A stretch of DNA of 64,000 nt from Acidimicrobiaceae bacterium (GTDB taxonomy: Bacteria; Actinomycetota; Acidimicrobiia; Acidimicrobiales; RAAP-2): NCBI GenBank assembly GCA_003133685.1, contig PKYQ01000023.1:158622-222621 (forward strand). The letters are read 5' to 3'. The notes beneath the pieces were generated by a model that had not been told where the DNA came from, made no database searches, and saw only the letters and a list, made by a program, of their open reading frames with translations. Numbering within the stretch: the stretch's first letter is position 1; every line of letters begins with the position of its first letter. A program made the translations under genes and the position numbers. Below are positions 26,749 through 30,538 of the stretch, in pieces.

Positions 26749-26756
26749 ATATCCAT
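26749..26756. repeat. 8-bp target-site duplication, left copy
   Basis: ATATCCAT directly before the left inverted repeat; identical to 29371-29378. Confidence 0.9.
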
Positions 26757-26782
26757 GGCGTTGTGTGCGCAAAAAAAACACG
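26757..26782 (+). repeat. Left terminal inverted repeat of the IS1595-family element
   Basis: GGCGTTGTGTGCGC then eight A and CACG; matches the right end with one A fewer there. Confidence 0.92.
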
Positions 26783-26898
26783 GTTGCAACGTTTGTTTCC
26801 GTTGACCAGGGACAACGATACTTTTGCTCTCTGCTAACCTTTGAAACGCCATAAATTCACAAAATTGAACTGCACTATGGCCAATTCTTAAGTACCTT

Positions 26899-26927
26899 TT
26901 GACCAGGTGGCCTAAGTTCGTTAACGT
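26899..26927 (+). promoter_or_regulatory. Sigma-70-type promoter of the passenger operon
   Basis: TTGACC (26899-26904), a 17-bp spacer and TAACGT (26922-26927). The GTG of the first passenger gene begins 8 nt after the -10, so the message would be leaderless or nearly so. One of the best-formed promoters in the window. Confidence 0.65.
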
Positions 26928-26935
26928 AGGCCGTT

Positions 26936-27160
26936 GTGTCGGAGCGGAAGCAGTCAGACAAGGAGATCGGAAAACTCCTTGGCGATGTGCGAAAAGGCGG
27001 TTGGTCGATTGAGCCCCCAAAAGGGAAGAGCAATATCTACAAAGCCAAGTGTTTTTGTGGGGCTCATCTGGAGCACATCCATTCCACGCCGTCTGGAGCG
27101 CACTACGTGAGAAATAAACTTGGTCATATGAAAAAGACTTGCTGGAAGGAGGCAGAGTGA
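26936..27160 (+). CDS. HicA-like small basic protein, passenger gene
   Basis: 74 residues, basic and Cys/His-containing. SDKEIGKLLGDVRKGGWSIE and the later HIHSTPSGAHYVRNK resemble the small double-stranded-RNA-binding fold of HicA-type mRNA interferases, where a His in the second strand is catalytic (here HIHSTPSG is the candidate). It lacks a canonical GSHH motif, so assignment is tentative. The GTG start is set by the strong upstream promoter. It is the first gene of a two-gene operon whose second gene overlaps its stop, the arrangement of a toxin-antitoxin pair. Confidence 0.5.
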   Translation: MSERKQSDKEIGKLLGDVRKGGWSIEPPKGKSNIYKAKCFCGAHLEHIHSTPSGAHYVRNKLGHMKKTCWKEAE

Positions 27161-27501
27161 CACGGTACGAAGTGATTTTTGATGGAATCCTAGTTCCGAC
27201 TGATTCGGACAAGGTACTAGCGAGCGAAGACGTTGAGACCTTTGTCGATCTTTTCGCAGGTGAGTTGGAAGAACACCACGGCGAAGACATCGATGTATCG
27301 ACAAACCTCGAAACGCACGAAATCACTGTGTCGGTAACCCTCGAAAAAGACGACCTGCTTGAAGCGCAGGGGGTCGGCAGCGCGATAATCCGCTCTGCGT
27401 TTCACGCCGCTGGAGCTCATACTCCAGGCTGGGAAATTGACTGGATAAAGGCCCGAACTGTCCTGGAAAAGGACAATCATCCGGAGTTAGCCTCCGCATA
27501 G
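27157..27501 (+). CDS. Acidic partner of the HicA-like protein, passenger gene
   Basis: 114 residues, strongly acidic (ELEEHHGEDIDVSTNLE). Not recognised as a family; it reads as an alpha/beta domain with two strand pairs (RYEVIFDGILV and EITVSVTLEKDD). GTG 27157 overlaps the stop of the preceding gene (GTGA) and has AAGGAGG 4 bases upstream, an excellent ribosome binding site, so strong coupled translation is expected, as for an antitoxin made in excess. No DNA-binding motif is obvious. It ends just before the SOS-box palindrome of the transposase. Confidence 0.6.
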   Translation: MTRYEVIFDGILVPTDSDKVLASEDVETFVDLFAGELEEHHGEDIDVSTNLETHEITVSVTLEKDDLLEAQGVGSAIIRSAFHAAGAHTPGWEIDWIKARTVLEKDNHPELASA

Positions 27502-27505
27502 CCGT

Positions 27506-27524
27506 TTGACGAACAACTGTTCGT
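27506..27524 (+). promoter_or_regulatory. SOS box (LexA-site-like palindrome) overlapping a -35-like TTGACG
   Basis: ACGAACAACTGTTCGT (27509-27524) is a perfect palindrome around AACT|, with the CGAAC-N4-GTTCG core of actinobacterial/Bacillus-type LexA sites. It overlaps TTGACG (27506-27511) and lies 44 bp before the transposase start, so LexA binding would block transcription of the transposase. Confidence 0.65.
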
Positions 27525-27568
27525 TCATCAGGCGAAACGATGTCACACCCCCTTGAGAAGATGGGGGA

Positions 27569-28528
27569 ATGAAGACAACGATTGCCAGCCTGAGCCGAGA
27601 GATTATTACCGAGGCCGACGCCTACCTGTACCTCGAAAACATGCGCTGGCACGGTGAGGCCAAGTGCCCCAAGTGCGCGTCCACGGACGTTCACTACGTT
27701 GAGCCAACCAATGGCGTGTCGCGCACCACGGCGGGCGGTTCTCAGTCTGAGCGCCGTGTGTGGCGTTGCACACCCTGCCGTAAGCAGTTCAGCGTTTTGA
27801 CTGGCACCATCATGCACGCGACCAAGATTTCGGTTCGCACATCGGTGATGGTGATTTTCGAAATGTGCGCTTCGAAGAATGGCGTCGCCGCTCGCGAGAT
27901 TGAGCGCAAGTACGGATTGTGCCCTCGTACTGCGTGGCACATGTTGCATCGCATACGTGAGGCCATGAGCCACGATGACTATGTTCTGTTCTCTGGTGAC
28001 GTTTCGGTTGACGAGGTTTACATCGGCGGTAACCCTGAGTTACGCCACGCTAATGACCCTCGTGAAGTTGGCATTGGTCGCGGTACGAAAAAGACACCTG
28101 TCGTTTCGGTCATTGACGCAGACACTCACCAGATCCGTTCGCACGTCGTGCTGTCCGTTGACTCGAAGTCGCTTGGTGATGTCATTCGTGTGAATGTGGA
28201 CACGGCAACCACGACGCTTCACACTGACTTGTTTCCGGCTTACCTTTCCGTTGGTCGCACGATGGCTGGTCACTACCGTGTCAATCACAAGGCCGGTGTC
28301 TACGCCACTGACAAGACGAACGGAACAAACCTTTGCGAGAACTACTTCGCACAACTCAAGCGCGGCTTGAAGGGTACGCACATCCACGTTGACCCCAAGC
28401 ACTTGCACCGGTATTTGAATGAGTTCGACTACCGATACAGCACTTTTGAATTGACCGACGCTGAGCGAATGGCTGATCTTGGGACTCGCCTCGCTGGTCG
28501 TCTGTCCTACACGGAAGTCACTGCTTGA
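27569..28528 (+). CDS. IS1595-family transposase
   Basis: 319-residue transposase. N-terminal zinc ribbon (CPKC about 33, CTPCRKQF about 72), a helix-turn-helix-like GVAAREIERKYGLCPRTAWHM, then the ISXO2/DDE-like catalytic domain with Asp in VSVDEVYIGG, Asp in LHTDLFPAY and Asn in NLCENYFAQLKR. The family tail HLHRYLNEFDYRYS follows. All key residues are intact, so the enzyme looks active. The ATG has GGGGGA just upstream. The gene follows the SOS-box palindrome and is convergent with a passenger membrane protein gene (2 bp between stops). Confidence 0.92.
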   Translation: MKTTIASLSREIITEADAYLYLENMRWHGEAKCPKCASTDVHYVEPTNGVSRTTAGGSQSERRVWRCTPCRKQFSVLTGTIMHATKISVRTSVMVIFEMCASKNGVAAREIERKYGLCPRTAWHMLHRIREAMSHDDYVLFSGDVSVDEVYIGGNPELRHANDPREVGIGRGTKKTPVVSVIDADTHQIRSHVVLSVDSKSLGDVIRVNVDTATTTLHTDLFPAYLSVGRTMAGHYRVNHKAGVYATDKTNGTNLCENYFAQLKRGLKGTHIHVDPKHLHRYLNEFDYRYSTFELTDAERMADLGTRLAGRLSYTEVTA

Positions 28529-28530
28529 AA

Positions 28531-29154
28531 TCAAAGGTCGTCCTGTTCCAAGAGCCATCGGCGCAACCAAGCGAGCCGACCCGCCACCTCGCTCCAGTTC
28601 GTGAACCACTGGTCTCCACGCTGCCATTCAGGTGGAGTTGGCGAAACTTGGGGCTCAGTCATAAAAGTTCGACACGCTGAATCCCCGAACCATTCGCGGA
28701 CCAATATGTCCGCATGATCTCGCCATTCAATGACGGCCTTAATGCGCTCCATCATTTCAATATCGCGTTTGTCAAACTCGGCTTCAGTCATTGTCCCGGC
28801 GTCGTAAAGATGCAGGTACTTGACGGCAAGTTCTCCCCAATTTCGAGATTGCCCGAGGCCGTCAAGATAGAGCTTCTTTGCGTTCTCATATCGAGGAATA
28901 TCGCGGCTACGAGGGTCGTGTGGCCAAATACGAAGTGCTGCGGCGAATGCGCCCGCGACACCAACCGCACCGACAACCATATAAACGATGATGGCGACAA
29001 AGCGAAAATCGATCATGCCGCGCGTCCTCGGGTGCCAGCCCAAAAGGAGGAGTACCACGGCAATTCCGTAGGCAGCCAGCACACTCCACGCCAACCCGAA
29101 GTGCCCTCTATCTTCTTTGACTTGAAGTTTGTGGCGCAGGATATGCCAGTCCAT
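28531..29154 (-). CDS. Membrane protein of unknown function, passenger gene
   Basis: 207 residues with two hydrophobic helices near the N-terminus (LAWSVLAAYGIAVVLLLLGW and AIIVYMVVGAVGVAGAFAAA) and a long soluble C-terminal domain rich in Trp and charged residues. The tail has an EAEFDKRDIEMMERIKAVIEW segment that resembles short-helix SHOCT-like oligomerisation motifs in pattern only. No family assigned. A TAGGCT -10 ends 6 nt before ATG 29154 and shares its TAG with the stop codon of the gene before it. Confidence 0.65.
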   Translation of the reverse strand: MDWHILRHKLQVKEDRGHFGLAWSVLAAYGIAVVLLLLGWHPRTRGMIDFRFVAIIVYMVVGAVGVAGAFAAALRIWPHDPRSRDIPRYENAKKLYLDGLGQSRNWGELAVKYLHLYDAGTMTEAEFDKRDIEMMERIKAVIEWRDHADILVREWFGDSACRTFMTEPQVSPTPPEWQRGDQWFTNWSEVAGRLAWLRRWLLEQDDL

Positions 29155-29160
29155 TTACTG

Positions 29161-29166
29161 AGCCTA
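29161..29166 (-). promoter_or_regulatory. -10 element TAGGCT overlapping the upstream stop codon
   Basis: Minus strand TAGGCT-cagtaa-ATG. Bases 29166-29164 (TAG) are also the stop codon of the small acidic protein gene. Confidence 0.5.
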
Positions 29167-29307
29167 AGACTCGTCTCCTGAGCCCTCGGTGTCCATTTCC
29201 CAGTCCTCGTCGGCAGTCCCAGCACCGCCGAGAATGGCGTCCAGCGCCTCTTCGGGTTCCATTTCGAGGCCCACCTTTTCGTCGGGGTCGTAGCGTTTCT
29301 TAGCCAT
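29164..29307 (-). CDS. Small acidic protein, passenger gene
   Basis: 47 residues, starting AKKRYDPDEKVGLE and then very acidic (MEPEEALDAILGGAGTADED, ending in SGDES). The central EEALDAILG helix is the only structured part; the tail looks disordered. ATG 29307 is chosen because TAGGCT (29320-29315) lies 7 nt upstream; an earlier in-frame start would run into the terminal repeat. Function unknown; possibly an accessory or regulator of the membrane protein encoded next to it. Confidence 0.5.
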   Translation of the reverse strand: MAKKRYDPDEKVGLEMEPEEALDAILGGAGTADEDWEMDTEGSGDES

Positions 29308-29314
29308 AAATACC

Positions 29315-29320
29315 AGCCTA
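29315..29320 (-). promoter_or_regulatory. -10 element TAGGCT for the small acidic protein gene
   Basis: Minus strand TAGGCT-ggtattt-ATG, 7-nt spacing. Confidence 0.4.
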
Positions 29321-29345
29321 ACGGGGGTAGATTTTCGGGGGTAGG

Positions 29346-29370
29346 CGTGTTTTTTTGCGCACACAACGCC
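29346..29370 (-). repeat. Right terminal inverted repeat of the IS1595-family element
   Basis: Reverse complement reads GGCGTTGTGTGCGC, seven A and CACG, matching the left end. Confidence 0.92.
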
Positions 29371-29378
29371 ATATCCAT
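29371..29378. repeat. 8-bp target-site duplication, right copy
   Basis: ATATCCAT directly after the right inverted repeat. Confidence 0.9.
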
Positions 29379-29380
29379 TA

Positions 29381-29398
29381 TACGAACACCTGTTCGTA
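29381..29398 (+). promoter_or_regulatory. recA SOS box (LexA operator)
   Basis: TACGAAC-ACCT-GTTCGTA, a perfect 18-bp palindrome with the CGAAC-N4-GTTCG core, about 85 bp before recA. A TACCGT (29400-29405) directly after it may be the -10, which would put the LexA site in the promoter spacer. Confidence 0.88.
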
Positions 29399-29482: not shown

Positions 29483-30538
29483 ATGGCAACCGACGACCGC
29501 GAGAAGGCCCTCGACGCCGCACTCGGCCAGATCGAAAAGCAGTTCGGCAAGGGCTCAATCATGCGCATGGGCGAGAACCTGCATATGAACATTGAGTCGA
29601 TTCCGACCGGCGCCCTCGCCCTGGACATGGCGCTCGGCATTGGTGGGCTGCCACGCGGTCGAATCGTCGAGCTGTACGGCCCCGAGTCTTCGGGTAAGTC
29701 AACGCTGGCGATGCACGTCGTTGCCGAAGCACAGCGAAACGGTGGCGTCTGTGCCTACATCGACGCCGAGCACGCCATGGACCCGGTCTACGCGCGCGCC
29801 ATCGGCGTCAACGTCGACGAGCTCTTGATCTCCCAACCCGACACCGGCGAGCAAGCCCTCGAGATCACCGACATGCTGATCCGCTCCGGCGCGCTCGACG
29901 TCATTGTCATCGACTCGGTGGCAGCCCTGACGCCCCGCGCCGAGATCGAAGGGGACATGGGCGACACGCACGTCGGACTGCAAGCCCGACTCATGAGCCA
30001 GGCGCTTCGCAAGCTCACCGGCGGACTTTCCAAGTCCAACACCGTGGCGATCTTCATCAACCAGTTGCGCGAAAAAATCGGTGTCATCTACGGAACGAAT
30101 GAGGTCACGCCTGGTGGACGGGCTCTCAAGTTTTACGCGTCGATCCGCCTGGACATCCGTCGCATCGAATCGATCAAGGACGGCACCGACGTCGTCGGCA
30201 ACCGCACCCGCGTGAAAGTCGTGAAGAACAAGTGCGCGCCGCCGTTCAAGCAAGCGGAGTTCGACATCATGTACGGCCAGGGCATCAGTCGCGAAGGCTC
30301 GGTCCTCGACGTCGCGGTCGAACTGGGCTTTGTGAAGAAGGCCGGCGCGTGGTTCACCTACGAAGGCGAGCAGATGGGCCAAGGTCGTGAGAACGTGAAG
30401 GCCTTCCTTCGCGAGAACCCGCAGACGATGGCCGAAATCGACAGCCGAGTGCGCGAGCACATGGCGAATGCTCTCTTGCCCGACGTCGTCGGCACGGGCG
30501 TCGAGATGGACATCGACACGCCGATCTCACTCGACTAA
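29483..30538 (+). CDS. recA: Recombinase RecA
   Basis: 351-residue RecA: promotes strand exchange and LexA cleavage in the SOS response. Walker [10 protein letters not shown], Walker B region [12 protein letters not shown], the L2-adjacent [11 protein letters not shown] and the conserved [12 protein letters not shown] segment are present, with an acidic C-terminus ([10 protein letters not shown]). ATG 29483 is chosen over in-frame codons upstream because of AAGGAG spaced 7 bases and the alignment start [19 protein letters not shown]. Regulated by the SOS box at 29381. No recX follows; a hairpin terminator does. Confidence 0.97.

Follow-up and report, generated by a model that had tools for sequence, protein, structure and literature searches.

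A group of IS1595-family transposons that probably inserts beside LexA operators and includes a lineage whose transposase is likely under LexA control

A set of IS1595-family elements probably inserts next to LexA operators, keeping a nearly constant distance from them, and in the lineage found at recA the transposase would itself be under LexA. We give this reading a probability of about 0.8, drawing on the positions and spacing of the elements, their repeated insertion and the conservation of the box, all taken from sequence. The reference element lies directly upstream of the recA operator in a stretch of 64,000 nucleotides that was analyzed as a whole (the window). The genome of the window is designated G000; other G numbers denote the compared genomes, which are mostly metagenome assembled (MAGs).

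Results

The element in the window is 2614 bp long (26757..29370, forward strand) and is bounded by terminal inverted repeats (GGCGTTGTGTGCGCAAAAAAA; GGCGTTGTGTGCGCAAAA) and by the 8-bp target-site duplication ATATCCAT, whose left copy occupies 26749..26756 and whose right copy (29371..29378) overlaps the block that is conserved in the promoter/operator region of recA. Inverted repeats beginning with GG and an 8-bp duplication are hallmarks of the IS1595 family, to which the 319-aa transposase (27569..28528, forward strand) also belongs by its transposase domain (PF12762, E 2.6e-29; NF033547, 160 bits against a cut-off of 75) and its N-terminal zinc ribbon (PF12760, E 9.7e-10). Passenger open reading frames of 74 aa (26936..27160) and about 114 aa (27157..27501) lie on the forward strand, and one of 207 aa (28531..29154), with hydrophobic stretches recognized by eye and a similar-looking counterpart in the G490 element, lies on the reverse strand; Pfam and further family profile searches gave no informative match for the passenger genes. 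A small acidic frame (MAKKRYDPDEKVGLEMEPEEALDAILGGAG..., RYDPDEKVGLEMEPEEALEAILGGAG...; 29164..29307, reverse strand) is common to six elements with these ends (the window; L080, L162, L160, L172, L173), some of which lack an intact transposase, and may have a role in transposition or targeting. The idea of a multicopy element was rejected, as the element is present once in the host genome, which also encodes a second transposase, 50% related, at the imuA' box. No relatives of the element were confirmed in viral contigs, and those on plasmids or phages were all less than 60% identical, about 27-34% among the ones listed.

The host encodes LexA (TIGR00498, 192 bits), with the operator ACGAACAGTTGTTCGT before its gene. 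The same type of box precedes lexA, recA, imuA', a UvrD-type helicase gene and the gene for a small LysM cell-wall-type protein in this genome; the helicase and LysM-type names were given by eye, and imuA' was identified by NF058630, tested on the G470 copy. The recA operator ACGAACACCTGTTCGT (29382..29397) has its core beginning exactly 12 bp past the element end and is followed by recA (29483..30538, forward strand; PF00154, E 1.5e-139), whose start was set by eye at an ATG behind a GGAG-type ribosome site. The window contains two CGAACNNNNGTTCG sites against 0.36 expected in shuffled sequence (3 of 100 shuffles reach two), and the whole 2.5-Mb assembly contains 19 against 3 for a reversed control pattern; the motif is enriched in the genome. 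With high likelihood, it is the LexA operator of this host. As separate observations, the start codons of imuA' and of the UvrD-type helicase gene fall inside the LexA box CGAACATATGTTCG (L052 4690, L177 4807, L267 2111), which suggests leaderless SOS transcripts, and RecA matches end near residue 215 in long frames of 511-776 aa (G531, G473, G489, G293, G470 and others), suggestive of RecA inteins in many members of the genus.

A contig scan recovered MAGs with transposases 89% (G487) and 77% (G476) identical to that of the window, and both elements end just before the recA operator. Across the genus, the region upstream of recA is occupied in five genomes (G000, G487, G476, G488, G493) and empty in about 79. 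The element end lies exactly 12 bp from CGAAC at all five occupied sites, in five species, and the G493 element is an 891-bp form without a transposase. Phe and Asp tRNA genes are among the cargo of the G487 and G476 elements (L019 554-646; L020 2677-2751). At empty recA sites (n=75), conservation starts at about -12, the insertion base, and there is none further upstream (A in 61% at about -12, T at -9 in 97%, C at -7 in 95%). Because conservation at empty sites starts at the insertion base, the duplication restores the conserved block before the operator, and recA regulation should therefore survive. The recA site should be a safe, conserved landing place.

The pattern extends beyond recA. 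The distance to a CGAACNNNNGTTCG box is 12 bp for each of the seven elements that have these ends; five are at recA and two at other genes. In G490 (transposase 67% identical), the right end lies 12 bp from CGAACGTACGTTCG, upstream of another gene, and in G485, a decayed, reversed element lies 12 bp from CGAACAGTTGTTCG. A sister transposase group of about 50% identity, with inverted repeats GGTGACGTGTAACTTGACAAAC, recurs at imuA', where its elements lie 11 bp from the box CGAACATAYGTTCG in G470, G484, G491, G481 and G000 (contig C32), in both orientations and with duplications that match at both ends (GGCTACTC; CGCTACTC in G491). One end of an imuA'-type element was also seen at imuA'/SRAP in G485, G531 and G486, in the last two via the flank on the side of the SRAP gene, which was named by eye from its MCGR start; the G485 imuA' and G531 junctions depend on contig ends. 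The G531 MAG contains the imuA' site in both a filled and an empty state (contigs C58 and C41; L182, L283), as would be seen in a mixed population with a recently active element.

Three further families of the order provide similar cases. G345 carries a 325-bp element with a 20/20 inverted repeat and an 8/8 duplication; the box 14 bp away belongs to a gene called ImuA'-like for its shared GLRRGST motif. In G090, an ImuA'-like gene has its box 12 bp from an element end, at a contig-end junction where contigs C133 and C4 overlap, and in G037, the distance between element and box is 28 bp, the gene behind the box resembling the DUF222/13E12 type by eye. A broad inverted-repeat-plus-box pattern run over the order returned mostly chance matches, with G090 and G345 real; a narrower one found G037 and G000, plus a candidate in G019. 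In G461 (L190), the end of a related element, with the duplication GAAACTTC, has a LexA-like box with two mismatches, TGAACCGGCCTTCG, 10 bp away, which may be a weak site.

How strong the preference is was assessed on 27 elements with both ends defined and an 8-bp duplication with at most one mismatch. A perfect (10/10) box stands near one end in 11 of the 27, ten of them at 11-14 bp, against 33 of 20,000 stretch pairs drawn at random from these loci, a null pool that is itself box rich. The enrichment is independent of counting related insertions, since separate sites are involved at recA, at imuA', at two more genes in the genus and in three other families. The LexA box is the reference for a near-fixed spacing of 11-14 bp: the 8-bp duplication is followed by 3-4 bp before CGAAC-N4-GTTCG, or by 6 and 20 bp in two cases from outside the genus. 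The preference has exceptions, as a perfect box is missing beside 16 of the 27 elements, among them G477, which belongs to the imuA' group, and G374, a near relative of the recA-site group. On these position data, targeting beside putative LexA operators is strongly supported.

The Mutator-like DDE transposons TnGBS, ISLre2 and ISKra4 are known to insert at a set distance ahead of promoters; they target sigma-A promoters as a class, entering 15-17 bp upstream of the -35 element (PMC3942029). The elements described here could likewise aim at promoters in general, with SOS promoters as the frequent survivors, and the location of the recA insertion at the edge of a conserved upstream block would fit such behavior. 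We consider this rather unlikely, as the boxes, about 20 per genome, are far outnumbered by promoters, yet 11 of the 27 elements have a box beside them; moreover, the imuA' box overlaps the start codon, a geometry unlike that of recA, and the spacing to the box is nearly equal.

A second LexA-type box, ACGAACAACTGTTCGT, lies inside the window element at 27509..27524, with its core CGAACAACTGTTCG at 27510-27523. The earlier note had called it a perfect palindrome sharing the CGAAC-N4-GTTCG core with the recA operator and preceding the transposase by 44 bp. The shared core was borne out, the second copy in the window (29383-29396) being the recA operator itself, and so was the distance to the ATG at 27569. 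The note mentioned neither the 12 bp between the element end and that operator nor the repeated location of relatives at LexA boxes, which is the more unusual of the findings. The palindrome, on the other hand, is imperfect: its 7-bp arms, ACGAACA and TGTTCGT, are complementary, and its 2-bp center, AC, is mismatched. The 114-aa passenger frame stops 7 bp ahead of the box. Identity to the lexA operator of the same genome is complete, ACGAACAACTGTTCGT being its exact reverse complement (16/16); the box therefore combines the GAAC-N4-GTTC core of Gram-positive-type LexA operators (PMC2248561) with identity to the operator of an SOS gene in its own genome.

All three transposase-bearing elements at recA have the box 57-69 bp upstream of the start codon. 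Its center bases vary among them (AACT, AGGC, ACCT), the flanks mostly differ, and the core is kept before the transposase in the two nearest relatives (G487, G476) despite different neighboring sequence and cargo. The expectation that related elements would carry the palindrome at the same place held for these two relatives (89% and 77%) and failed for G490 (67%) and the imuA' group (about 50% identity), which lack an internal box. On this comparison, the internal box characterizes the recA-site lineage, not IS1595 in general. The proposal that a LexA operator controls the transposase has good sequence support in the identity to the lexA operator and in the core kept in the two nearest relatives, and loses from the lack of the box in more distant ones; LexA control of this transposase is likely.

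The promoter that such an operator would govern is less clear. TTGACG at 27506 does overlap the box, as claimed, but its role as a -35 element is unsupported, there being no -10 hexamer at the right spacing, and a promoter scan of 27300-27700 found no sigma-70-like promoter, with a consensus that may not suit this host. The imuA'-group transposase has a consensus-like promoter reading out from the inverted repeat (TTGACA/17 bp/GATAAT in G470, by eye), and TTGACA does not occur in the inverted repeats of the recA-site elements. We infer that the recA-site lineage may have swapped a repeat-borne promoter for an internal, LexA-controlled one.

Might the internal palindrome instead be an operator for the transposase itself, or for some palindrome-binding protein other than LexA, with the same recognition picking targets? 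A single recognition would then account for both the internal box and the target, and the presence of the box in 3/3 transposase-bearing recA-site elements would be expected. We judge this improbable: the box equals the lexA operator base for base, the imuA' group picks boxes without having an internal one, and an internal target would invite self-insertion. That the box is a chance match or a functionless relic would agree with the lack of a good -10 hexamer behind it and with its absence from more distant relatives. This seems very unlikely, since 0.36 sites expected per 64 kb correspond to well under 1% in 100 bp, and the box recurs in three relatives at a similar distance with different center bases and flanks.

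Occupancy mapped on a tree of 84 genomes, in which a single gene (recA) stands for the species, needs five changes, at least four of which are forced by well-supported branches. The two copies of the duplication are identical in G000, G487 and G476 and agree at 7/8 positions in G493. A single old recA insertion inherited by all carriers and lost elsewhere, with no targeting, could cover the close pair G000 and G487, which have the duplication ATATCCAT in common and may reflect one event, but is hardly credible for the whole set and was rejected on the recA tree and the local duplications, given that carriers are scattered among empty relatives, each has its own duplication, cargo differs among carriers, relatives branching between carriers have clean empty sites without excision footprints, the imuA' elements sit in both orientations and other genes and families are also hit.

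Discussion

The elements analyzed here resemble known IS1595 members with ISXO2-like transposases in their zinc ribbon and IS1595-type DDE domain, repeats starting with GG, 8-bp duplication and passenger genes. They differ in their preference for LexA operators and, in one lineage, in the LexA-type box before the transposase, neither of which was found in the literature searched. Tn7 inserts into attTn7 at glmS through the dedicated targeting protein TnsD. It likewise uses a conserved, safe landing site beside a conserved gene; TnsD and the glmS site are Tn7's own.

TnGBS, ISLre2 and ISKra4 share with these elements a DDE transposase and fixed-distance insertion. Their transposases are Mutator-like (p-MULT), a type to which the IS1595-family enzyme does not belong, and the mark here is the operator of a repressor. 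Ties between transposase genes and SOS control are described for ISCR elements, whose transposase is LexA repressed, and SOS effects have been reported for IS10 and, with dispute, for Tn5/IS50 (PMC13393415 and work cited there). Those elements belong to other families, and no LexA-box target preference was noted for them there. In fission yeast, Tf1 is guided by Sap1 into stress-response promoters at fixed positions, -9 and +19, from the Sap1 motif (PMC5741268). Tf1 thus also takes a fixed position relative to the motif of a host DNA-binding protein, but it is a eukaryotic retroelement, and the likeness is an analogy only. A search of the open-access literature gave no earlier description of a transposon that targets LexA operators, nor of one aimed at the operator of a stress regulator.

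Returning to the reading of insertion beside LexA operators, the operator would serve as a landing mark for the transposon. The guide could be the transposase reading the DNA of the box, LexA, or another protein bound at these promoters. In the recA-site lineage, LexA would probably repress transposition, and DNA damage would release it together with recA, so that damage would free the operators and switch on the transposase of this lineage at the same moment. In this scheme we infer that LexA binds, that damage induces the transposase and that the box is recognized. Gene-distal insertion at 11-12 bp would spare both the box and recA; insertions on the other side of the box may happen and would be selected against. 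In its fuller form, with the LexA operator, possibly through bound or freshly released LexA, as the mark and one LexA-controlled lineage inserting in time with damage and with near base-pair precision beside recA or imuA' without breaking them, we regard this scheme as somewhat better than an even bet.

Few bacterial transposons have a fixed target. If the scheme is true, one host switch would set when these elements transpose (on DNA damage) and where (at SOS promoters), and the elements would leave the master repair gene functional and could alter mutagenesis genes (imuA'). It would also give Tf1/Sap1 targeting in yeast a bacterial counterpart and offer a case in which DNA integration guided by a repressor or an operator can be tested.
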